From positions 1 to 35,703 of the IMG/VR virus record IMGVR_UViG_3300024324_000798: DNA of 35,703 bases. One strand, written 5' to 3'. Positions within the stretch are counted from its first letter, which is position 1, and each line of letters begins with the position of its first letter. The position numbers and the translations under genes are program-made. Source of the stretch: a virus. Under the pieces are notes generated by a model. It worked only from the letters and a program-made list of their open reading frames with translations. It was not told where the DNA came from and ran no database searches. Shown here in pieces: positions 1,720 to 35,160 of the stretch.

Positions 1720-1746
1720 ATACGATTGACTTTATTTTTCATTACA
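1720..1746 (-). promoter_or_regulatory. ECF-type promoter site D: TGTAATG-N15-CGTAT
   Basis: On the minus strand TGTAATG (1746-1740) is followed by a 15-nt spacer and CGTAT (1724-1720); the ATG of the 75-aa gene is 24 nt further on. The spacing and -35 element match the three sites at 6134, 7908 and 8652; only the -10 differs (CGTAT for CGTCA). This unit includes the sigma factor gene, so the site could give positive autoregulation. The motif match is seen directly; promoter activity is inferred. Confidence 0.55.
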
Positions 1747-1794
1747 ATCTTTTTTATATTCGGTATTAATCCGGTTTCTAACATCTGGTTAAGA

Positions 1795-3171
1795 CTAAAA
1801 CGGGGCATCATCATGGAACCCGATTCTTGGGTGTTCTTTTTGTATCTCTTCTTCATAAGTATTAAAATCTGACCATCGTGTTTTGTCTTCTGATATATTT
1901 ATATCAACATCACCTATTTTACCGTTCCTATTCTTGCTCACAATTATCATTCCCGGTGCTTCACTATCGTATGAATTATTAAGAGATTCATTCCTTACTG
2001 GAAAAAGTATTTTATCAGCATCCTGTTCGATATCACCGGCCTCTTTCAACATATTCTTTTTAGGAATTACCCCTTCAGCTTCACGATTCAACTGGCTTAA
2101 TGCAATAATCGATATTTTAAGTTCCTTCGCTACTTGCTTAATCGCTCTGCTACATTCCTGAACTATTAACCTGGGTTCACTATATCTGGAAGAACTCATC
2201 AATTGTAGATAATCTATAATCACCAACTTAACTCCAAATTTACGGTTCATCTTTCTTATTTTGGATCTCAGTTGAGTTGCCGACATAGTACTTGAGTCAT
2301 CCAAATATAATGGGGAATCCTCATGTTTCTTAACTGACTTTTCAACAGCGACCCAATCAATATCACTTGCATTATTGATTCGACTCAATTTAATCTCACT
2401 ATCATTTGCTAGTATCCTTTTTGTGAGTTGGATATTGGTCATTTCCAGAGACACGAAGTAAACCGGAACAATATTAATGGCATTGATTGCGAACTGAATT
2501 GCCAGAGCTGTTTTACCCATTGATGGACGTGCACCAATCACAATCATATCTCCCTCTTCCCATCCGGAAGTAACCCTGTCTAAGTCAACAATTCCAGAAG
2601 GTATCCCAATTAATTCACCTTCATTCTTCTCTTGCTTTTCAAGTTGGTCGGTTAGTTTTAGCATTTCAACGATAAGTTTCACAGGTTCATTCGTTGTATC
2701 GGTATTAACTATCTTAGATAGATTTGACTCGGCAAAATCAATTATATGCTGCAGGTCAACTGTGTCATCGTAAGATATTTGTTGAAGCTCGGAACCGTAC
2801 CTAATGAACTCCCTTTTTACAAATTTTTCATAAAGAATCTTAGCATGATATTCAACATGAGCGGATGACATTACATTCCTTGTTAGACCTGTAATATATA
2901 CAGCACCACCGATTAAATCAAGCTGATTTCTCGCTCTTAATCCTTCTGTTATGGTTAAAATATCGATATTCTTATTCTCAGAATGCATATCTAAAGCGCA
3001 TTGGAAAATCTTCTGGTGTGAATCAACATAGAAACACCCCGTAGTTAGGAATGATACTGTATCAATTACATTATCTATCATTATAGCACCAAGAACAGCT
3101 TCCTCAATATCTATTGCTTGTGGTGGTACTTTCCCATATTCAGTATTTATTTCATCAGTCGTCTTTGACAT
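1795..3171 (-). CDS. dnaB: Replicative DNA helicase, DnaB family
   Basis: Hexameric 5'-3' helicase that unwinds the phage replication fork. From the ATG at 3171 it is 458 aa, the usual length. Residues about 15-115 match the DnaB N-terminal domain (PPQAIDIEEAVLGAIM.., then FYVDSHQKIF). The RecA-like domain carries Walker A ARPSMGKT (about 214-221), SLEM (about 241), Walker B LVIIDY (about 316-321) and the SQLNREAE element. I chose 3171 because MSKTTDEI begins about 10 residues before the conserved domain and overlaps the upstream gene by only 17 nt; a start at 3258 would overlap by 104 nt. No primase is seen in the window, so host primase is presumably recruited. Confidence 0.95.
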   Translation of the reverse strand: MSKTTDEINTEYGKVPPQAIDIEEAVLGAIMIDNVIDTVSFLTTGCFYVDSHQKIFQCALDMHSENKNIDILTITEGLRARNQLDLIGGAVYITGLTRNVMSSAHVEYHAKILYEKFVKREFIRYGSELQQISYDDTVDLQHIIDFAESNLSKIVNTDTTNEPVKLIVEMLKLTDQLEKQEKNEGELIGIPSGIVDLDRVTSGWEEGDMIVIGARPSMGKTALAIQFAINAINIVPVYFVSLEMTNIQLTKRILANDSEIKLSRINNASDIDWVAVEKSVKKHEDSPLYLDDSSTMSATQLRSKIRKMNRKFGVKLVIIDYLQLMSSSRYSEPRLIVQECSRAIKQVAKELKISIIALSQLNREAEGVIPKKNMLKEAGDIEQDADKILFPVRNESLNNSYDSEAPGMIIVSKNRNGKIGDVDINISEDKTRWSDFNTYEEEIQKEHPRIGFHDDAPF

Positions 3172-3793
3172 AATTAGGTTTGTATATTTCTGTTTGTTCA
3201 GAGTTATTGAATTTAGATATATTCTTTTTCCATGTTGATAATCTTCTAGATATGGCAAAACTTTTTTCTTTTTCCCATCTGCATTTTATATCATCATCAC
3301 CGGATTCTGTCCAGTATTCGAAAAAGTCTTTTAACATTAAATCAGGATATTGGGGTCTAAATTCCAAGACCTTTAGTCGGAATTTAGCTATCCTCTTATC
3401 TTTATCTTTATCTTTATTATTATCTTTATAGCTACGTTTTTGCTTAAGCAAAATTCTAGCATTGCTTGACCTCTTCAGACCCCCAATACGTCCAGCTTCT
3501 GAGCGTTTCTTTCTTTTTCCAGATAGTAGATCGAACTGCTTGTCAAGGAATTTTATTGTTATAGAATCATCTTGATTTTTCTTAATAATATTTAGCTTAA
3601 TTAATTCTTCTAGCAAAATCTTAGCATTGCTAAAGCGTTTATTGATCAATGCTAAATCAATACTACAATCCTTAAACCAATAAAATGCACATATATCAAC
3701 AAATAACCCTTTTAATTCATACGATTCAAGGCTTATATCATCATTGAGCCATTCCGATGCAGTAAATCTAAAGTAAGGAAGTTCTTTTGCCAT
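3155..3793 (-). CDS. Replication initiator-like protein (Lin1244/Lin1753-type N-terminal domain)
   Basis: Probably loads or organises the replisome upstream of DnaB. The N terminus (YFRFTASEWLNDDISLESYELKGLFVDICAFYWF) resembles the Lin1244/Lin1753 winged-helix domain of phage replication proteins. It is followed by a basic stretch KRKKRSEAGRIGGLKRSS and an Asp-Lys repeat (about 120-130) encoded by a tandem TTTATC-type hexamer on the plus strand (3396-3430). The C terminus has EKSFAISRRLSTWKKNI, reminiscent of DnaD/DnaT-like tails. The gene directly precedes dnaB, sits behind a host-type promoter (3920-3949) and a hairpin leader, and contains short repeats that could be an origin. Confidence 0.75.
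   Translation of the reverse strand: MAKELPYFRFTASEWLNDDISLESYELKGLFVDICAFYWFKDCSIDLALINKRFSNAKILLEELIKLNIIKKNQDDSITIKFLDKQFDLLSGKRKKRSEAGRIGGLKRSSNARILLKQKRSYKDNNKDKDKDKRIAKFRLKVLEFRPQYPDLMLKDFFEYWTESGDDDIKCRWEKEKSFAISRRLSTWKKNISKFNNSEQTEIYKPNYVKDD
3441..3660. repeat. Candidate iteron cluster inside the replication initiator gene
   Basis: Two 18-nt direct repeats, CAAAATTCTAGCATTGCT at 3449-3466 and CAAAATCTTAGCATTGCT at 3614-3631, match at 16 of 18 positions. The second continues into the palindrome TTAGCATTGCTAA. A third, inverted copy of the core (CAATGCTAA) is at 3648-3656, and a perfect TGCTTAAGCA palindrome lies at 3441-3450. Phage origins are often embedded in initiator genes as iterons, so this is a candidate origin. 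Alternatively the repeats only reflect a duplicated peptide (SNAKILL / SNARILL). Confidence 0.3.
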
Positions 3794-3797
3794 AATC

Positions 3798-3867
3798 GCC
3801 TAAATTAGGCACGGAAACAACCCCGGTAGGCAATACATTCAGACGAAGGTATCCGGGGTTGACCGTG
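3798..3867 (-). promoter_or_regulatory. Structured leader: long hairpin plus palindrome before the initiator gene
   Basis: In the 5' leader between the promoter and the ATG at 3793, plus-strand AACCCCGG (3819-3826) pairs with CCGGGGTT (3853-3860), and CACGG (3810-3814) pairs with CCGTG (3863-3867). This gives a two-part stem around a 26-nt loop. Directly next to it, GCCTAAATTAGGC (3798-3810) is a palindrome 5 nt from the start codon. No U-tract follows, so this is not a simple terminator. It could be an attenuator, a protein-binding site or a translation control element. Confidence 0.5.
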
Positions 3868-3919
3868 TTTATTTTCTATAAATTGTTTTCATGAGAACGT
3901 CTAAATGTTTTTGCCTATT

Positions 3920-3949
3920 CAAATGTAAGGATATAATTCTAATATCCAA
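3920..3949 (-). promoter_or_regulatory. Bacteroidota housekeeping-type promoter for the replication genes
   Basis: On the minus strand TTG (3949-3947), 19 nt and TACATTTG (3927-3920) fit the -33 TTG / -7 TAnnTTTG consensus of Bacteroidota primary sigma. Transcription would start near 3914 and give a leader of about 120 nt holding the hairpin at 3798-3867, before the initiator and dnaB genes. The site lies in a 168-nt gene-free gap. Confidence 0.6.
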
Positions 3950-3961
3950 CTAAACTATATG

Positions 3962-4519
3962 TTATAACTTGAATATTTTTAGATCATACAATTCCTTCAC
4001 AATCTTAGCCTCATGAACTGCATCATCAGCCCCTCGGTGTTGCTCCACATAATCTTCATCCGGGAAAAAGTGTTTGTATGCTTCCTCACATGAAGGCCAT
4101 TTGTAACCAGACTTACCATACTTCGCCGGTATCTTGCAAATATCAGTTGATAGCTTCATTGGACAAGGTAGCTTAACAGGGAATTTAAATCCCCTGTCTT
4201 CCAAGAATCCGAAGTCAAATTGATTATTGTAAGCCGTAGATCCTAATGGATACATTTCAATAATTGACTGAATATGCTCTTTAAAATGTGAGAGCTTAGG
4301 GCTATGATGAATCATCAATGCAGTGATACCTGAATTCTCAATTACCCAGGATTTTTCAACCTCCTCGGGTGTTGTCTTCTCTTCGTGTAATATATGGTCG
4401 AAAAGAACCCTGATATCACCTGTATCAAGATCCAGACTTACAATTCCTATCTCTATAATGCTGTTTTTTGTGTGACTGAAACCAGTAGTTTCAATGTCGA
4501 TGATTAAAATCTTTTTCAT
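3962..4519 (-). CDS. DEDDh 3'-5' exonuclease (DnaQ/RNase T fold)
   Basis: Predicted 3'-5' exonuclease of 185 aa. IDIETTGF near the N terminus gives the first Asp and Glu (D8, E10), AYNNQFDFGFLEDRG gives the third acidic residue (D102), and HRGADDAVHEA gives the His and Asp of ExoIII (H161, D166). This is the DEDDh set of DnaQ-like enzymes. With no polymerase gene nearby it acts either as a stand-alone proofreader or as a DNA or RNA trimming enzyme. It lies downstream of the annealing protein and PD-(D/E)XK nuclease genes in the unit that starts at the ECF-type promoter at 6134. Confidence 0.85.
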   Translation of the reverse strand: MKKILIIDIETTGFSHTKNSIIEIGIVSLDLDTGDIRVLFDHILHEEKTTPEEVEKSWVIENSGITALMIHHSPKLSHFKEHIQSIIEMYPLGSTAYNNQFDFGFLEDRGFKFPVKLPCPMKLSTDICKIPAKYGKSGYKWPSCEEAYKHFFPDEDYVEQHRGADDAVHEAKIVKELYDLKIFKL

Positions 4520-4591
4520 TCTTTAATTTATTTATAAGTTGAAATATTTGTGAATTTAAGCGGCTACTAATCATAGCCAAACCGTTGTAAT

Positions 4592-5446
4592 TTATTCTTC
4601 ATAATCAACCACATGTCCAAATCTATCATACCATTTTGGCACCAATTCATTGTGGGACTCTTGAGTATCAAACAGCCAAAAGTCATAACCCATGTGCCAA
4701 AGATCATGCTTCATACAATACTTGAAAGCTTTAACAAGTAGATCAAACTCTATCATGGCGTTCTCCTTATCCTTGTCATCGAACTTGATTACCGATACTC
4801 CAAATGGTTCTGTCTTTTCAACTACCAACCAATAGAATACCGGGAACTGCCATCTCTTTCTTTTGTAGTAATTCAAGTAAGTAGCAGGTTGTAACGGGTA
4901 TTCGTAACTGGCTACATCTCTCATGAAATCTCTTGGCTTTGCTGATCTTGCACTTTTTAGATCAACAATAATTTCCTGCCTTTTCATGTGTCCATTATCT
5001 TCACGATCAAGGTGACTACCAAAGTCCTGGAACCCTCTGAATGGTATTCCACCTGTGTACTTAAACTGCAACTCCTTCTGGACATCCTTTCGATTAGCCA
5101 ACAACTCTGAAGCTAACTTGTGCTCAAGGACTGACTTTACACATTGTTCAGCAATGGCATGGTCCTTTGGAGAAATAATCTCCTTATTTTCAGCTTGAGC
5201 AACCATTCTTAACTCATTGTTAAGTGCAACAGATCCCGTACCCTTGTACAACTCCTGAATAAGAAACCTCTTATCAACTTCTTCTGGCTGAAGTAACATA
5301 GAGTCGATAAGATTCCCCATCGCATAAGCTGTCTTATATTCTCTTGGGCTTGTCAGGTAGTGTATATAATGCTTCGGTGACTTTTTGAACTGTTTTAGAC
5401 TGGAATAGCTCAGTGGTCTGCTTTTTAGAAACTCTATATCTATCAT
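4592..5446 (-). CDS. PD-(D/E)XK exonuclease, RecE/DUF3799-like
   Basis: Likely a processive 5'-3' exonuclease making single strands for the annealing protein encoded just upstream. Residues 12-50 have the typical opening (LSYSSLKQFKKSPKHYIHYL.., then AMGNLIDSMLLQPEE). Catalytic positions fit D147 (SHLDRED) and VDLK (161-164), followed by a QxxxY motif in YPLQPATYLNYY (Q186, Y190) that is characteristic of RecB-like nucleases. The 'GxxxH' motif of close relatives is GNLID here. The length, 284 aa, is normal. The gene starts in a TAATG overlap with the annealing protein gene, which supports a coupled recombination pair. Confidence 0.85.
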   Translation of the reverse strand: MIDIEFLKSRPLSYSSLKQFKKSPKHYIHYLTSPREYKTAYAMGNLIDSMLLQPEEVDKRFLIQELYKGTGSVALNNELRMVAQAENKEIISPKDHAIAEQCVKSVLEHKLASELLANRKDVQKELQFKYTGGIPFRGFQDFGSHLDREDNGHMKRQEIIVDLKSARSAKPRDFMRDVASYEYPLQPATYLNYYKRKRWQFPVFYWLVVEKTEPFGVSVIKFDDKDKENAMIEFDLLVKAFKYCMKHDLWHMGYDFWLFDTQESHNELVPKWYDRFGHVVDYEE

Positions 5447-6108
5447 TATACTGACTTAATTAGTTCGTTCTTAATTTCCTTAAATACTTCAAGTTCGTTT
5501 GACTGCCCTTCAGCTACAAGCAAACGTTCAATAATCTTTTCTCTGCCTTCATCGTCCTGATATGTTTTCAGTGCTTCTTCAACTTCCTTCTTAATCTGGT
5601 TCTTTTCGATATTTCCAATTACACTAAGATCGTAATTGATCCTTTCATCCCGGTTCAAGTCCTTCCCAAATAGTTTACCCATCTTCTCAGCTGCATCCTT
5701 AATGGCATACGACTCTGCTGCTGGTACTGCTAACTGAACAGCATTAGCTTTGATATTATTGAACTCAATAGCTCCTGATCCTTTATCGGTCTGTAATGGT
5801 TGGGCTCCTGCCCCGTCTTGCCATTTCTCAGTATTAGTAACAGGATCATCATAGTATAATCGAATATGTACAACAACACTATTGGCAATCAACTTAATCT
5901 CCTTGATTTCAACATGCCAGTTGACAAATATCTTAGTAAGTAGATATTCAATCCTTTCAATCGGGATATATCCTACATTGTGAATAGGATGCTGCTTGAT
6001 CCACTTAGCCATAGGCGGCTGATTCAACAAGATATTCAACTCATTATGTTTGCTCTTCGTAGCAATGTCACCAGAATAAACATCTTGGATGTTCGGTAAT
6101 TTATCCAT
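5446..6108 (-). CDS. Single-strand annealing protein, Rad52-like
   Basis: Probable phage recombinase of 220 aa. The clearest family signal is residues about 110-155: GSGAIEFNNIKANAVQLAVPAAESYAIKDAAEKMGKLFG, which matches the Rad52/ERF-type helix ending in 'A.K..G..FG'. Before it comes a beta-rich part with IHNVGYIPIERIEYLLTKIF and VVVHIRLYYDD. The last 50 residues form a charged helix. It is coupled to the PD-(D/E)XK nuclease by a TAATG overlap, the usual annealing protein/exonuclease pairing. An ECF-type promoter (6134-6160) lies 25 nt before its ATG. The exact subfamily (Rad52, ERF or Sak) is uncertain. Confidence 0.65.
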   Translation of the reverse strand: MDKLPNIQDVYSGDIATKSKHNELNILLNQPPMAKWIKQHPIHNVGYIPIERIEYLLTKIFVNWHVEIKEIKLIANSVVVHIRLYYDDPVTNTEKWQDGAGAQPLQTDKGSGAIEFNNIKANAVQLAVPAAESYAIKDAAEKMGKLFGKDLNRDERINYDLSVIGNIEKNQIKKEVEEALKTYQDDEGREKIIERLLVAEGQSNELEVFKEIKNELIKSV

Positions 6109-6133
6109 CTTTTTATATTTGTGGTTTAATTAT

Positions 6134-6160
6134 TGACGAATAAGTCAGGGAATCATTACA
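6134..6160 (-). promoter_or_regulatory. ECF-type promoter site B: TGTAATG-N15-CGTCA
   Basis: Minus strand TGTAATG (6160-6154), 15-nt spacer, CGTCA (6138-6134), then 25 nt to the ATG of the annealing protein gene. It fills a 57-nt gap. The -35, spacer length, -10 and distance to ATG match sites at 7908 and 8652. Promoter role inferred from this repetition and from its likeness to ECF promoters. Confidence 0.6.
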
Positions 6161-6165
6161 CAGAA

Positions 6166-7503
6166 CTACATAAAGCTCAGAATGTGTATGATTACTGAAT
6201 TGGTCCAGCCGTTACCAATCATTTTATATTGTTGGGTTTCGCTGATATTTGGGTCAAATTTATACCAATCCGGAATTGTTTGCAATCTTAAACATTCAAG
6301 TGGGGTTAACCTTCTTAGTCTACAACTACCCATCACTAGATTATTGTGTTCCCAGGAACTACTTAGTACCGTAGGTGACTTTTCATCAAACACACCGCCT
6401 TTATTGTAACCATGAGGCATCTGTAATATTAGATTGTCTTTCTGAACACTTGTAATACAGTTGGTTTTGCCATCTGTTTTTGGCTCCAATCTTTGTTCTG
6501 TTGGATTTCCGGGTGTTCTGTCACTTGGATCCTCGGGGTTACGACCTCTCATTGCAACACAGAGAACATCTTTATCTTTCAATATCTGAAATATATTAGT
6601 TCTCTGAGCGTGGTTATCCATACCTTTCCAATAATTAGCATCTATACATGTAGACTTTTGGGATTCACGTAAAACACCATTGTCGTTTAATACACCAACG
6701 AGCGTTGTTGCTCTTGCCCTGGCTTGAGTTGGGTTATTATTCTTTTGAGTTAATGCGTATGATTTGTCAGGATTGATTCTTGGTTTCTCCTTTAGTATCT
6801 TTCCCAGCCTGTAATTACTGATGTAATATTTATCATCCACATCATCTTCTAAAACACTCTTTAGCAATATACCTTCATCTTCAGGTTGTGGAATATCAGT
6901 ATAATTATCCCCGAATAAACCCTGTTTTCTGGTTCTAATATTAGTCCAATATAAACGCTTTCTATTCTGAGCAGAAACCAATTCGCTATTTATCTTCACC
7001 GGGAATAATCCCAATAGATCATTAATAACCCGTTGTGATTGTTTATCCATAGCCACGTTCTCAAGTAGAAACTTCACGTCAGGATTACACTTCTTGATAT
7101 ACCGGTATATCTTCACGAACTCAAAGAATAGTCTGGATCTTGGATCTTCGAATTTCAATTGTTTACCAGCAAAACTGAGGCCCTGGCAAGGACTTCCAGC
7201 CCCAATAAGATCAATAAAAGACCAATCAGTATTACGAAGCCACACCATTTTATCTTTACTGGTTTCTGAGATAAATTCAGACTCTAAATACTTGAAATAA
7301 GTCGAATCCTTCCAGGTCATTGCCTTGCGCAAAAAAACAACATCTCCAACCTGTATTGTATCTGGGAATACAAATTGAGTTTGTTTAATTGCATGTTTAT
7401 CAATCTCGGATGAATAATACTTTGCAACCGTATAACCAGACTCTATCAGTGCAATCTGGAGACACGACATGCCGTCAAATAAGGATAATATATTCAAATT
7501 CAT
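6166..7503 (-). CDS. C5-cytosine DNA methyltransferase
   Basis: Methylates cytosine C5 in a specific DNA site, most likely to shield phage DNA from host restriction. Motif I is ILSLFDGMSC (about 5-14), motif IV GSPCQGLSFAG with catalytic Cys106, motif VI LLENV (E148), motif VIII QNRKRLYW (179-186), motif IX RLRRLTPLECLRLQ and motif X YKMIGNGWTNSV near the C terminus. The long middle part (about 200-400) is the target-recognition region. The length is 445 aa with all motifs intact. No restriction endonuclease gene is adjacent, so it is an orphan enzyme. It follows the 119-aa gene and probably shares the promoter at 7908. Confidence 0.95.
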   Translation of the reverse strand: MNLNILSLFDGMSCLQIALIESGYTVAKYYSSEIDKHAIKQTQFVFPDTIQVGDVVFLRKAMTWKDSTYFKYLESEFISETSKDKMVWLRNTDWSFIDLIGAGSPCQGLSFAGKQLKFEDPRSRLFFEFVKIYRYIKKCNPDVKFLLENVAMDKQSQRVINDLLGLFPVKINSELVSAQNRKRLYWTNIRTRKQGLFGDNYTDIPQPEDEGILLKSVLEDDVDDKYYISNYRLGKILKEKPRINPDKSYALTQKNNNPTQARARATTLVGVLNDNGVLRESQKSTCIDANYWKGMDNHAQRTNIFQILKDKDVLCVAMRGRNPEDPSDRTPGNPTEQRLEPKTDGKTNCITSVQKDNLILQMPHGYNKGGVFDEKSPTVLSSSWEHNNLVMGSCRLRRLTPLECLRLQTIPDWYKFDPNISETQQYKMIGNGWTNSVIIHILSFM

Positions 7504-7522
7504 AACCTGAAACTACTAATAA

Positions 7523-7882
7523 TTAACAGTCTTTGATTAACTCTTTCACCTTGTCTTCGAGTTCCGCAACATAAAAGTCCTCATTGTCATTGTTGATAGT
7601 GGCTTCAACCGATTCACCATTAAACATTACCCACGCTTCGAATGATGTAGACACTTCAATATGTGTAATGATTCTTGCCCCGGTTCCGGATTCAGTGTCA
7701 AACTCTGATTCAATTTCAACATACCCTTCTACGTGAAGTTGCGTGTTTTCATCAATATCGAAGTCCTGATTTATGTTGGTTCTGTCACCATCGCAATCAT
7801 TAAAGATTTCCCTTGCTACTGTATTCAGAAATGTTCCTTCTTCTAATTCGGTGATTTTTATGCTCTCAACTGATACTATCAT
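7523..7882 (-). CDS. Hypothetical acidic protein, 119 aa
   Basis: No family recognised. The sequence is strongly acidic (many Asp and Glu, e.g. NDCDGDRTNINQDFDIDEN and NNDNEDFYVAELEDK) with alternating hydrophobic residues that suggest a beta-rich fold; there is no signal peptide or membrane segment. Small acidic phage proteins sometimes imitate DNA or inhibit host enzymes, but that is only a possibility. It leads the unit containing the C5 methyltransferase and is preceded by ECF-type promoter site C, 25 nt before its ATG. Confidence 0.7.
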   Translation of the reverse strand: MIVSVESIKITELEEGTFLNTVAREIFNDCDGDRTNINQDFDIDENTQLHVEGYVEIESEFDTESGTGARIITHIEVSTSFEAWVMFNGESVEATINNDNEDFYVAELEDKVKELIKDC

Positions 7883-7907
7883 TATTTCAATGTGTTGGTT
7901 TAGAAGA

Positions 7908-7934
7908 TGACGACAGTTAGTAATTTATATTACA
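7908..7934 (-). promoter_or_regulatory. ECF-type promoter site C: TGTAATA-N15-CGTCA
   Basis: Minus strand TGTAATA (7934-7928), 15-nt spacer, CGTCA (7912-7908), then 25 nt to the ATG at 7882. The -35 element overlaps the last codons of the zinc-binding protein gene. Same -10, spacer and start-codon distance as sites B and A. Functional role inferred. Confidence 0.6.
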
Positions 7935-8281
7935 TCACCATAAGAAAGATTATCAACATAGTCTCCGAATTGATCACACTCCTTTGGCATAACAACATTG
8001 ATTTCACCAATATCAATTACATTGCCTTTTATATCACACTGAGGAGAATAAACAAAATGCTCTTTTGCTTTGCAATATAGTAGTTTAACTTCGAAATCAA
8101 GTGTTTCACCACTACCCTCAATACGGTCTGATTTTTGTTCTAAGTGTGTACAACTAATGCACTTTCTTTGGTTCTCAGGATTACTTTTACATAATTTTTC
8201 ATGATTCAAGCAACGATGTTTTTGCTTGTAATACTTGCTACAAAATTCACAAGTATAAATTTCCATTAACTCTGTTTTCAT
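7925..8281 (-). CDS. Zinc-binding protein, 118 aa
   Basis: Unknown function, but with two clear metal-binding groups. Near the N terminus C11, C14, H27 and C31 form a C2H2/C2HC-like finger (YTCEFCSKYY ... LNHEKLC). C41 and C44 (CISC), then C70, H75 and C82, could form a second site. I chose the ATG at 8281 because it starts just before the finger, lies 17 nt after the preceding stop and has AGGA about 11 nt upstream. A longer in-frame version to 8344 would overlap the preceding gene by 46 nt. It could be a DNA-binding regulator or host-takeover protein. Confidence 0.7.
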   Translation of the reverse strand: MKTELMEIYTCEFCSKYYKQKHRCLNHEKLCKSNPENQRKCISCTHLEQKSDRIEGSGETLDFEVKLLYCKAKEHFVYSPQCDIKGNVIDIGEINVVMPKECDQFGDYVDNLSYGDVI

Positions 8282-8298
8282 AAAATATATCCTGTACT

Positions 8299-8625
8299 TT
8301 AATATTCTATCGTAATCGGTTCTGAACTCCATACATGACCACAATCATGTATTGCTAACTCTATTGTATTATCACTAAGCCTGTGCCATTTGAGTAGAAC
8401 AGTTTTACTGATAAGACGATTCTCCATGTAAACAATCTTTCCTGTGCTTGATATTTTTGCAGGGAATGTCTTAATTATTTTTTTTGCAAAATCAATAGGC
8501 GCCAGACGGAATCTTTGATAACCATTCTTGTCTGAGTATATAAACTCGACTCCACATATAACGATAGAATCAACTTCTTTTCCGCTCTGAGGATGCATCA
8601 TCATCCCTAACTTTAAATTTTTCAT
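8299..8625 (-). CDS. Hypothetical protein, 108 aa
   Basis: Not recognised. It is a soluble, beta-rich looking protein with a basic middle (DFAKKIIKTFPAKISSTGK) and a tail containing HDCGHVW. It is the first gene after the late-region terminator and lies 26 nt behind ECF-type promoter site A, so it would be an early or middle product. It is followed by the zinc-binding protein gene in the same unit. Confidence 0.7.
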   Translation of the reverse strand: MKNLKLGMMMHPQSGKEVDSIVICGVEFIYSDKNGYQRFRLAPIDFAKKIIKTFPAKISSTGKIVYMENRLISKTVLLKWHRLSDNTIELAIHDCGHVWSSEPITIEY

Positions 8626-8651
8626 CTTGATTGTGTTTGATTACATTATAC

Positions 8652-8678
8652 TGACGACATAATAAAGGAAACATTACA
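8652..8678 (-). promoter_or_regulatory. ECF-type promoter site A: TGTAATG-N15-CGTCA
   Basis: Minus strand TGTAATG (8678-8672), 15-nt spacer, CGTCA (8656-8652), then 26 nt to the ATG at 8625. The first T of the -35 is the end of the U-tract of the late terminator, so termination of the late unit and this start are back to back. Sites A and B also share TTCC in the spacer. Confidence 0.6.
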
Positions 8679-8705
8679 AAAAAACCCGGTACAATATGCA
8701 CCGGG
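8678..8705 (-). terminator. Rho-independent terminator ending the late region
   Basis: On the minus strand CCCGGT (8705-8700) pairs with ACCGGG (8690-8685) around a 9-nt loop, followed by seven Ts (8684-8678). It lies 23 nt after the stop of the last late gene (8729) and directly before ECF-type promoter site A. Confidence 0.85.
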
Positions 8706-8728
8706 CCCCCAAATAATCACATGAAAAA

Positions 8729-11239: not shown

Positions 11240-13635
11240 TTCCCAAAGTAATTATCAGCACTGGTTTTAGCATCTCCTGTGAGTGCTGCATCGTACTGGG
11301 TTTGTTTCTTTATATCAATCGAATCTGTAATATCTGAGTAGGTTGGGTTAACTGTCATCGCTTTTATGGCTGCATAATTGTTACTGACAGGATTACCAGA
11401 TACATCATACCAATTATTGTCCTCATCTGCCACAAACATTTCAGGAGAGGAATATTGTAGCGCTTCTGTTTCTGAACCATTATGGAAATCATCAACAGAT
11501 ATCTTAGGATTAGTAAGCTTGTATCCTAATACATCCTTGCTTGGAGTAGCTATTTGCGAAGGAATCAATATCTGATCATAAACACCTGTGCCGTTAGTGA
11601 AATCATTCAGAGAAAAATAACCAGACCCAATCCTTAACCTTTTCAATACATCCGCTACGCCAACATTAGCCAAATAATAAGCTGAAGTAGTGTAAGTATT
11701 GTCGGTTATTGGATTGGTTCCTGTAGATGCTACCACTAACTCCATAGCTGTTAAATCAGGAGCAGTATAATGAGTATCAGTAATTGACTTAGTTTTACCT
11801 TGGATGTAAAAAGCAAAAGTTCCAATTGCCCCTGTTACATATTCATCAAGAACTGAATTTCTAAATACAAGTATCCTGTAATCCATATCAGCCGTAATGT
11901 AAGCATCAACAGTACTAAACATGGCTACTAAACCAGCTCCAACCCTACGCCAAAACTTCAACGCCATAGCGCCAGATACAATACCAAAATATCCATTATT
12001 TATTGTCGTCGTACCATCTGAATTAAACTGGAAAGTAAATGCTGCACCAGATGTTGAATTGATCACTCCATCAAAAACTAATCCGTAAGCATTAGTGTTG
12101 ACTTTGTAAGCAGTTCCTGCTGTCCGACATCTTAACTTGTCACTAAATCCGTAATCCAGATTGAAGGAACTTGTTTTGTCATCCTTTGCCCAATCAGTTG
12201 CTATTGTGAAATTATCAAGAGCTCCATCATTTACACCCTCATTGGCACGATTATAAGTAGTGTCAGATCCAGCACCTTCTGAGAACCAATACTCAATGAT
12301 CTTAGTACCATCCTTAACAACATTCCAATAATCAAATAATGAACCGGATGAATTATTCTTGCTAACATATTGGTTCATGCAAGCCAGCGTCTTATCTGAC
12401 TCTCCGGCCCAAACTTCAAGTTCAGCAACTCCGGAATCAGTCAACTCATTAAAGCTAACACCCCAATCTCCGGTTGCACCATCATAAGTGAACGTACCAT
12501 CATACCAGGTAGATACAGATAAGGTAATTATTGTCTGAACATTCGTGTCACCGCTACCCTTTGAACTAGATTGAATCCTTACAATTCCAGCAGCAGTAGT
12601 GTATATAGAAATACCACCCAAGGCCGTGTCAAATGCACCAAACAACCACTGAGCAGTTGCGAGAGAAGCAGGAGTCTTGAATTTGTAGTTAAACACATAA
12701 GAAGAACCACCTGTCATTGTGGTCCCGGTATTGACTGCCCTTGTTGTTCCAGACGTTCCCTGCAATCCCCAGTTCTGGACTCTCTTGCAATTTAATTTAA
12801 CCCTTCCAACGTTAGTCTCATCCGGTGAAACAACAACACTTTCATTGTTAGAATCCAAAGGAATTAAACCATCCACACCAGATTTAGTAGCATAACCAAC
12901 AGTATCTACGAATGAAGGATGATCAATATCTTTTAAATGAAAACTAGCCAGCGTTGCATTGGCTATTGTTGCAGTTACCCCACTTGTGGTAGAATAAGAG
13001 GTTGAGCTTAGTCCGTTGTTCTTGGTTTCCTGACACCAGAACACATAACCCTCAATTCGAATATTGGAAGCTTGTACTGTATTGGGAACTATCCAATTTC
13101 CACTTACATCAGTTGTATCTACCTGATCTGAACTACCATCATAATAAGTCAACGACTTTGATTCAAAACCAGCACCAAATTGCAACTCAGCAGTACCATC
13201 TCCAAGATAACACCATCCACCATGTATTATCCCTGATCTTGTACCTTTTCTATCAACCCATTCGTAAACCTTCTCAATAGAATTATAAACCCCCTGAGCA
13301 ACCAAGTACTGCACAACACTTGAAACCCACAATGGAGGTAAACCACCAACAGGAATGTTTATAATAGGATCCAAAGCTTCAATGAAATCACCCAAATCAG
13401 TATATACGGTTCCATCAACCTCAATTGCACTCAAAAGTGTGTTCCGGATATTAATACCATATACAAGCTTTTTGGATAGAATAGATACAATAATATCACC
13501 ATCCTCATTCTCTCTACCTCTTATACTGTACTCACCTAAACCTCTATAGACAGACTGAACGGGTGATAAATCCTTATTAACAACAAGTTCAAATCCATAA
13601 GAATTTAACGTCGAAAATTCGTAAGTGTAAGCCAT
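11236..13635 (-). CDS. Large tail adhesin / putative receptor-binding protein
   Basis: 799 aa. The first about 95 residues (YEFSTLNSYGFELV ... YSIRGRENEDGDIIVSI ... DLGDFIEALDPIINI) are homologous to the separate 96-aa protein encoded next to it. The middle holds at least one LamG/concanavalin-like beta-sandwich, with a typical run near 300-470: SSYVFNYKFKTPAS, WLFGAF, STWYDGTFTYDG, then WSEGAGSDTTYNRA-type 'linker' text. A second sandwich follows at about 500-680. LamG-like domains bind sugars, so attachment to surface glycans is plausible. It lies after the baseplate genes and before the lysis genes, and starts in a TAATG overlap with the 96-aa gene. Confidence 0.75.
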   Translation of the reverse strand: MAYTYEFSTLNSYGFELVVNKDLSPVQSVYRGLGEYSIRGRENEDGDIIVSILSKKLVYGINIRNTLLSAIEVDGTVYTDLGDFIEALDPIINIPVGGLPPLWVSSVVQYLVAQGVYNSIEKVYEWVDRKGTRSGIIHGGWCYLGDGTAELQFGAGFESKSLTYYDGSSDQVDTTDVSGNWIVPNTVQASNIRIEGYVFWCQETKNNGLSSTSYSTTSGVTATIANATLASFHLKDIDHPSFVDTVGYATKSGVDGLIPLDSNNESVVVSPDETNVGRVKLNCKRVQNWGLQGTSGTTRAVNTGTTMTGGSSYVFNYKFKTPASLATAQWLFGAFDTALGGISIYTTAAGIVRIQSSSKGSGDTNVQTIITLSVSTWYDGTFTYDGATGDWGVSFNELTDSGVAELEVWAGESDKTLACMNQYVSKNNSSGSLFDYWNVVKDGTKIIEYWFSEGAGSDTTYNRANEGVNDGALDNFTIATDWAKDDKTSSFNLDYGFSDKLRCRTAGTAYKVNTNAYGLVFDGVINSTSGAAFTFQFNSDGTTTINNGYFGIVSGAMALKFWRRVGAGLVAMFSTVDAYITADMDYRILVFRNSVLDEYVTGAIGTFAFYIQGKTKSITDTHYTAPDLTAMELVVASTGTNPITDNTYTTSAYYLANVGVADVLKRLRIGSGYFSLNDFTNGTGVYDQILIPSQIATPSKDVLGYKLTNPKISVDDFHNGSETEALQYSSPEMFVADEDNNWYDVSGNPVSNNYAAIKAMTVNPTYSDITDSIDIKKQTQYDAALTGDAKTSADNYFGK

Positions 13636-29171: not shown

Positions 29172-29870
29172 CTATTTAAAATTCCACATGAATCCATTAC
29201 TTGTTTTTACTATTCCCCTGCATGCTGCTGAGAGATTGGTTACTTTATAACCTAACTCTCTTTGTACATCATGTAATGAATCAAACTCTCTTATAATCTT
29301 ACCGGTAATCTTATCAATCTGTAAAACTGGCTTACTCGATGGATTATCCTTACCTAATTTACCAAAACCTGCACCAATCTTAAGCTTTACATCATAAGCA
29401 TGTTGATTGTTTTCTGAGCAAGTACACCATTCAAGATTACTAAACAGGTTGTTTAATTTATTACCATCCTTGTGATTAATAAATGGTTTATTACTGTTAT
29501 TTTTTATGAATGATTCTGCTACTAATTTATGAACCACACAGTGTTTGTATTTACCATCTTTACATAAGGATAATGAATAATACCCTCTGTTATTGATTCT
29601 CTGTTTGATTAACTGACCCTTGATATTTATGTGTCCATTTCTACTATGCTTAACACATCTGTCAATACTTCTTACATTCCCGGTATTACTAACTTGATAT
29701 AATCCGGAATAATTGATAACATCCCTCCAAACTTCTTTCATTACAACTGCTTTTTGATAATCAACCGCTTTGATTATAATTGTGGCAGGAGGTGCAGTTG
29801 TTATACCTCCAGTTATATTAGCCGCTAAACTAATACTAGCCACAATCAATATTTTAATCAGAAAGATCAT
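29172..29870 (-). CDS. HNH homing endonuclease (NUMOD4-HNH-NUMOD1) with fused membrane-type leader
   Basis: 232 aa. Residues about 46-75 (EVWRDVINYSGLYQVSNTGNVRSIDR) are a NUMOD4 DNA-binding motif, about 110-160 an HNH nuclease (HKLVAESFI, INHKDGNKLNNLFSNLEWCTCSENNQHAY), and the tail a NUMOD1-like repeat (PVLQIDKITGKIIREFDSLHDVQRELGY). This is a free-standing selfish nuclease set between portal and protease genes. Residues 1-43 (IFLIKILIVASISLAANITGG..) look like a membrane segment unrelated to the nuclease. The normal nuclease start would be the ATG at 29741 (MKEVW), so the longer frame may be the remains of an interrupted small membrane protein. The ATG at 29870 overlaps the 28-aa ORF. Confidence 0.85.
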   Translation of the reverse strand: MIFLIKILIVASISLAANITGGITTAPPATIIIKAVDYQKAVVMKEVWRDVINYSGLYQVSNTGNVRSIDRCVKHSRNGHINIKGQLIKQRINNRGYYSLSLCKDGKYKHCVVHKLVAESFIKNNSNKPFINHKDGNKLNNLFSNLEWCTCSENNQHAYDVKLKIGAGFGKLGKDNPSSKPVLQIDKITGKIIREFDSLHDVQRELGYKVTNLSAACRGIVKTSNGFMWNFK

Positions 29871-33202: not shown

Positions 33203-33225
33203 TTTCTAACACTTTATATTTCAAT

Positions 33226-33233
33226 CAAAATTA
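33226..33233 (-). promoter_or_regulatory. -7 element of a possible late promoter before the terminase genes
   Basis: Minus strand TAATTTTG fits the TAnnTTTG consensus exactly, but no TTG is found at the expected 19-21 nt upstream. It lies between the terminator at 33253 and the small terminase start (leader about 18 nt), where a promoter is needed. Confidence 0.4.
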
Positions 33234-33252
33234 AGTCAATTTGATGGAAAAG

Positions 33253-33278
33253 AAAAACCGGACAATTTATCATCCGGT
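33253..33278 (-). terminator. Terminator separating the accessory block from the late region
   Basis: Minus strand ACCGGA (33278-33273) pairs with TCCGGT (33262-33257), with a 10-nt loop and a following TTTTCTTTT tract. It lies 29 nt after the stop of the 45-aa gene and 51 nt before the small terminase start. Confidence 0.7.
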
Positions 33279-33306
33279 CAATACCTTCTTTCGCTTGGTT
33301 GCGTTC

Positions 33307-33753: not shown

Positions 33754-33822
33754 GATTATTTAATATTAACTTACTGTTTTACAATCGTTTCGTATTAAGT
33801 CTTGCTGTGTTTATTTCTTAGT
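33740..33822. repeat. Repeat segment B: 28-29-nt start-region repeat and 50-bp direct repeat
   Basis: 33773-33822 is a 50-bp segment that recurs at 35111-35160 with 46 of 50 positions identical; both copies follow a stop codon within 10 nt. 33740-33768 recurs at 34755-34782 with one extra base. The copies flank the methyltransferase gene and suggest duplication or cassette-type exchange. Confidence 0.75.
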
Positions 33823-35110: not shown

Positions 35111-35160
35111 ACTGTTTTACAATCGTTTTGTATTAAGTCTTATTGTGCTTATTTCTTAGT
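35111..35160. repeat. Repeat segment A: 50-bp direct repeat
   Basis: Matches 33773-33822 at 46 of 50 positions and lies directly after the DUF5662-like stop codon. The same relation to the methyltransferase stop at the other copy makes it a shared 3'-flank element of accessory genes. Confidence 0.75.

Follow-up and report, generated by a model that had tools for sequence, protein, structure and literature searches.

An extracytoplasmic function sigma factor encoded by a phage and its predicted set of promoters

Few phages are known in which a sigma factor has a set of target promoters that can be predicted. The closest precedent for the system described here is Salmonella phage 7-11, whose sigma factor SaPh711_gp47 has mapped late promoters of the form GTAAtg-(16)-aCTA; a sigma24 of Winogradskyella, a member of the Bacteroidota, was named among the closest homologues of gp47 (PMC8948821). 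In parallel, tAATGTAtA promoters were described for the sigma factor gp36 of phage phiEco32 (PMC8948821). In Bacteroidota, the main sigma factor and its promoters are unusual and the timing of phage gene expression is poorly known, and no Bacteroidota phage with a sigma factor and predictable promoters was found in the literature searched. The present analysis concerns a 35,703-base virus record (IMGVR_UViG_3300024324_000798, hereafter the window) that encodes a sigma factor of the extracytoplasmic function (ECF) type and carries four promoter-like sites, P1 to P4, which this sigma factor probably recognizes.

The sites share with the 7-11 promoters a nearly identical -35 element (GTAATG) and a similar spacing. 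In both systems a small phage sigma factor with a region 4 redirects the host core enzyme to two-element promoters, an action that is predicted in the present case. On the contrary, the -10 elements differ (aCTA versus CGTCA) and late genes are served in 7-11, whereas recombination, methylation and sigma operons would be served here. The similarity to gp47 is marginal, lies in region 4 (E 0.015 pairwise) and was not counted as homology. In phiEco32, a phage sigma factor likewise serves middle and late genes, but the promoters are single-element ones, there is no region 4 homology and the host belongs to another phylum. Regulons of the phiEco32/7-11 type combine a phage sigma gene with several like promoters upstream of operons, both of which are found in the window, and with promoters before late genes, which are not.

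Promoters of the Bacillus SigM/SigW type have a -35 element with AA (TGAAAC) and a CGTC -10 element at 16 nt. Only this general ECF format is shared with the phage sites, since the -35 element and the phylum are different and the Bacillus proteins are weaker relatives than a Bacteroidota family, NF058625 (GFO_1088/PG0214). The latter provides the best family match of the phage protein and the same promoter type with a 16-nt spacer, and P4 would be a counterpart of the family's self-promoter before the sigma operon. It differs in that the phage sigma factor is under the family cut-off, is shorter, pairs with a -35 element ending in T and not in C, and has no recognisable anti-sigma gene next to it. 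The present case would be a 7-11-like device with another -10 element, acting on recombination and modification genes and on its own operon, and with a link to one defined family of host ECFs.

The sigma factor and the four sites

The sigma gene (278-736) encodes PF04542 and PF08281 above their cut-offs and neither region 1 nor region 3, which places the product among the ECF (group IV) sigma factors; the solved ECFs SigW and SigE were also matched. An ECF-type sigma factor had been recorded in the first-pass annotation of this DNA, and the presence of both Pfam domains confirms it. The best NCBIfam match was NF058625, a family of Bacteroidota ECFs (8.7e-31, 105.9-106.9 bits). The region-4 helix, which contacts the -35 element, reads NTVRVSLSRSR in the phage protein and TAVRVALSRAR in host ECFs.

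The motif TGTAAT-N16-CGTCA occurs exactly three times in the window, as P1, P2 and P3, and P4 has the same layout with CGTAT. All four sites lie on the strand of the gene that they precede, and the distance between the final base of a site and the ATG is 26, 25, 25 and 24 nt for P1 to P4. The motif had been placed by the first-pass annotation upstream of the genes starting at 8625, 7882 and 6108, and in its CGTAT form upstream of 1695, with a constant spacer and an ATG 24-26 nt after the -10 element, and it was found in this way at all four places. The accompanying description as four near-identical promoters fits three exact copies, while the fourth has 2 mismatches. In the same way, the remark that other gaps lack the pair is correct in that no further intergenic site with at most one mismatch was found in the window. 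P2 reaches into the final bases of gene 7925-8281 upstream of it. Moreover, no ECF-like pair with at most one mismatch was found before the late genes, the sites being confined to the early/middle region.

The pattern TGTAATR-N15-CGTMW has 5 matches in the window, whereas 100 shuffles gave 0.02 on average. The fifth match lies within the recombination gene in antisense (5792-5818, plus strand, CGTCT) and is taken as chance. As this pattern was chosen after the sites were seen, an unbiased search was added in which every 6-mer/gap/5-mer pair was scored in upstream regions of 100 nt, taken from all genes. The top score (10.75) was that of TGTAAT-15-TCGTC, the best of 500 dinucleotide shuffles reaching 9.57, which puts the sites above chance. 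The raw count of three is unexceptional, some exact 6+5 pair being present in at least three copies in 44 of 200 shuffles; the case rests on information content plus position and strand, not on the count.

A strong intrinsic terminator stands directly before P1, its T-run abutting the -35 element, so the upstream genes would end there and the P1 operon would start afresh. The leaders of P1 to P3 (about 8626-8651, 7883-7907 and 6109-6133) have in common an A-rich AAACCA/AAACA stretch before the ATG, perhaps linked to the start of transcription or translation.

The genes of the sigma operon overlap or are separated by gaps of at most 5 nt, and ahead of them no candidate promoter other than P4 was seen. 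The sigma gene is part of the operon that follows P4, a place that the first-pass annotation had missed, so the sigma factor would raise its own level, and self-activation via P4 is likely. No anti-sigma gene was recognisable beside the sigma gene, where an NF058625-type ECF would have one for a membrane protein; the neighbouring product of 13-291 is without family match and shows no obvious membrane segment by eye.

Promoters of cellular relatives and motif search in viral contigs

ECF genes are commonly preceded by their own promoter. Recognition of the four sites by the phage sigma factor would lead one to expect similar promoters in its nearest relatives from cells. The nine closest matches of the sigma factor were fetched from 247 Bacteroidota genomes, and TGTAAC-N16-CGTC was found 44-78 nt before the gene in eight of them, the ninth having a near miss, TGTAGC-N16-CGTC. 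Among about 45 ECFs, the motif was present in nearly all relatives above about 62 bits and in few distant ones. In a separate sample, it preceded the own gene of 8 of 10 NF058625 members (7 with N16) versus none of 26 members of the control family TIGR02985 (Sig70_bacteroi1; Fisher p 1.5e-6). Since close relatives use TGTAAC-N16-CGTC, the motif type is predictable from the sigma protein. P4 itself reads TGTAAT-N16-CGTA, equal in layout to the host self-promoter and different from it at two bases. The neighbours of the host ECFs were seen only as open reading frames (ORFs). MT835665, MT838794 and MT838531, labelled as phage in the phages collection, were rejected as phage relatives as they are bacterial DNA with argB or recA near the ECF gene, and were used as host examples.

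A matrix trained on 16 host sites only was run over about 71,000 window positions. P1 ranked first, P4 second, P2 third and P3 sixth, ranks 4, 5 and 7 being antisense positions within genes. The phage sites were unused in training, and protein and DNA therefore predict each other without circularity, which makes the proposed regulon directly testable.

In 44 viral contigs, proteins related (43-61%) to the annealing protein behind P3 are encoded. The motif was found before the annealing-protein gene in none of the 44, the best candidates having 2 mismatches and most of them 3-4, and 30 of these records were searched for the sigma factor with no match. A motif persisting in related phages without the sigma gene, which would speak against a sigma regulon, was thus looked for in these contigs and did not occur, the motif itself being absent. 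Alignment of the sigma factor with viral contigs gave only distant phage sigmas without the motif, and the region-4 alignment gave none.

Weighing the explanations

The phage ECF sigma factor quite probably directs the host polymerase to the TGTAAT-N16-CGT(C/A) promoters P1 to P4, because host self-promoters match the sites, the host-trained matrix finds them and contigs that share the recombination gene are without the motif. The sigma regulon proposed in the first-pass annotation is in this respect well supported by sequence comparison. The sigma factor would join the host core RNA polymerase, bind at these elements and start four short-leader transcripts at P1 to P4. P1 and P2 would drive two early/middle operons of unassigned and DNA-modification genes, P3 a recombination operon with annealing protein and exonuclease, and P4 the resolvase and sigma operon, giving rise to positive feedback. 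The genes for recombination, methylation and replication had all been assigned to the sigma factor beforehand. This agrees with the methyltransferase behind P2 and the recombination genes behind P3, but is only partly right for replication, as neither the DnaB-like helicase nor the primosome-like gene has a site to itself; both may be reached by read-through. The first sigma molecules could stem from read-through from the helicase region into the P4 operon, from a weak host promoter or from a host ECF of the GFO_1088/PG0214 family reading the TGTAAT sites.

Several findings weigh on the other side. The sigma factor falls short of the curated NF058625 cut-off (130 bits) and is, on sequence criteria, a divergent relative of this family rather than a member. 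Its identity to the best relatives is about 30-35%, so that its specificity is deduced over a long distance, and a tree of 42 ECFs puts it beside the motif-carrying group on a long branch with weak support (83/51). Every phage site has T at the last -35 base and every host N16 site has C, and P4 has a variant -10 element. The search for a sigma match in the 44-contig set covered 30 records, many of which are fragments, making the empty answer weak evidence. No second phage with both sigma factor and motif emerged from viral contig scans with the sigma factor, the annealing protein, the terminase and a portal alignment, and the conservation of motif together with sigma gene in related phages, named as support in the first-pass annotation, was accordingly not observed.

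It is unlikely that P1 to P4 are read instead, or in addition, by a host ECF of the GFO_1088/PG0214 family, with the phage sigma factor serving other promoters, for example late ones. ECFs of this family, whose own promoters are of the same type, were encountered in 10 of the 61 Bacteroidota genomes sampled. Moreover, the sigma gene closes the early region, with the terminase genes following it provided that the record wraps around, and in 7-11 and phiEco32 the phage's sigma factor is used for late genes (PMC8948821). However, TGTAAT in all phage sites versus TGTAAC in all host N16 sites is a consistent difference, contigs with the recombination gene but no sigma match are without the motif, and a few late operon heads (33202, 29870 and 13925) carry TAnnTTTG in place of an ECF-like pair. 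The main sigma factor of Bacteroidota has TAnnTTTG as its -7 element (PMC7366714); the occurrence of this element at late operons is suggestive only, about one being expected by chance on a rough estimate, and none is visible at the genes behind P1 to P4. A search for sigma-70 type promoters was uninformative (39 found, 39.3 expected); Bacteroidota do not use that consensus.

Two conserved half-elements at a fixed spacing could also bind a protein as an operator for another regulator. Such a role is very unlikely, given that the halves are not inverted copies, that spacing and sequences equal the -35 and -10 elements of a defined host ECF family, and that the ATG distance fits a short leader at genes without visible TAnnTTTG. 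Chance similarity in AT-rich intergenic DNA, to which the shuffles with three or more copies of some pair would lend weight, is hardly credible, the information-weighted score being above all 500 shuffles and the host-trained matrix independently picking the same sites.

A more elaborate scheme, rather doubtful at present, is a two-step switch in which a host stress ECF (GFO_1088/PG0214) weakly starts the TGTAAT promoters before the phage sigma factor, with a shifted -35 preference (T for C) and no anti-sigma, self-activates and takes over. If this were true, phage development would sense host stress and escape host anti-sigma control. The steady C-to-T change in the -35 element offers a natural host/phage pair for studying shifts in sigma specificity, and may give a separate switch for Bacteroidota genetic tools.

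Gene layout and further observations

All main genes of the window are on the minus strand, and no end repeats were detected. In reading order, a block of small genes with a methyltransferase gene comes first (35614 to 33484). The genes for terminase, portal, protease, capsid, tail and lysis are next (33202 to 8729), and the region for recombination, methylation and replication comes last (8625 to 13; Table 1). Relatives of the terminase, portal and capsid proteins identify the virus as a phage. Because its portal, capsid and protease resemble those of Polaribacter phages such as Danklef_1 (34-48% identity), a host among the Bacteroidota is most likely, judging from structural-gene kinship. 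Danklef_1 and Freya_1, both Polaribacter phages and the closest named relatives by structural genes, were searched for the sigma factor with no match.

Table 1. Positions of the predicted promoters, the terminator and the genes of the recombination, methylation and replication region
Feature	Position	Strand	Evidence or remark
P1, ECF promoter (predicted)	8652-8678	minus	TGTAATG-N15-CGTCA, TGTAATGTTTCCTTTATTATGTCGTCA; exact match; serves 8299-8625 and next gene
P2, ECF promoter (predicted)	7908-7934	minus	TGTAATA-N15-CGTCA, TGTAATATAAATTACTAACTGTCGTCA; serves 7523-7882 and C5-methyltransferase 6166-7503
P3, ECF promoter (predicted)	6134-6160	minus	TGTAATG-N15-CGTCA, TGTAATGATTCCCTGACTTATTCGTCA; serves 5446-6108 and 4592-5446
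P4, variant ECF promoter (predicted)	1720-1746	minus	TGTAATG-N15-CGTAT, TGTAATGAAAAATAAAGTCAATCGTAT; serves operon 1695 to 13 with sigma gene
ECF-type RNA polymerase sigma factor	278-736	minus	152 aa, regions 2 and 4 only; Pfam Sigma70_r4_2 1.1e-13, Sigma70_r2 4.9e-10
Intrinsic terminator	8680-8710	minus	-21.3 kcal/mol, z -3.7; T-run abuts P1 -35
First gene of P1, 108-aa protein	8299-8625	minus	no significant family match
Second gene of P1, Zn-finger/endonuclease-like protein	7925-8281	minus	weak PHROG 15137, 0.0015
First gene of P2, 119-aa protein	7523-7882	minus	no significant family match
C5-cytosine DNA methyltransferase	6166-7503	minus	PF00145 1.7e-31
First gene of P3, Rad52-like single-strand annealing protein	5446-6108	minus	PF04098 E 0.011, under cut-off (weak); PHROG 15333; 44 viral relatives
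PD-(D/E)XK exonuclease-like protein (DUF3799)	4592-5446	minus	4e-25
Primosome-like gene	3155-3793	minus	
DnaB-like helicase	1795-3171	minus	
First gene of sigma operon	1468-1695	minus	PHROG 8581, function unassigned
Small ORF in sigma operon	1283-1462	minus	5 nt behind 1468-1695
Holliday junction resolvase-like gene	741-1286	minus	PHROG 1770, 5e-17; 4 nt before sigma gene
92-aa protein after sigma	13-291	minus	no family match; overlaps end of sigma gene

Other elements were observed outside this region. A 50-nt direct repeat (33773-33822 and 35111-35160, 92% identical) precedes two small ORFs where the right-hand gene block begins and is a possible control element. Just before the terminase small subunit, at about 33203-33285, a terminator-like hairpin (GACCGG...CCGGTTTTT) is followed by TAATTTTG; the arrangement resembles that at P1 and is a candidate for the start of the late operon. 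A NUMOD4/HNH homing-endonuclease-like gene (29172-29870) is located between the portal and protease genes, and a relative of it sits in the recombination region of Danklef_1.

Sigma-like genes were also noticed in other viral contigs. Two of them (L024 and L026) carry, close upstream of the terminase genes, a small sigma-like gene without the TGTAAT-N16-CGTCA motif, which is perhaps a late sigma factor of other phages. In another phage contig of about 108 kb (IMGVR_UViG_3300009826_000019, L079), which encodes a distant ECF-like sigma factor, CATCGG-N16-TATA is present 13 times ahead of genes, from about position 13,350 of the locus onward; these sites may be a further promoter set of a phage.

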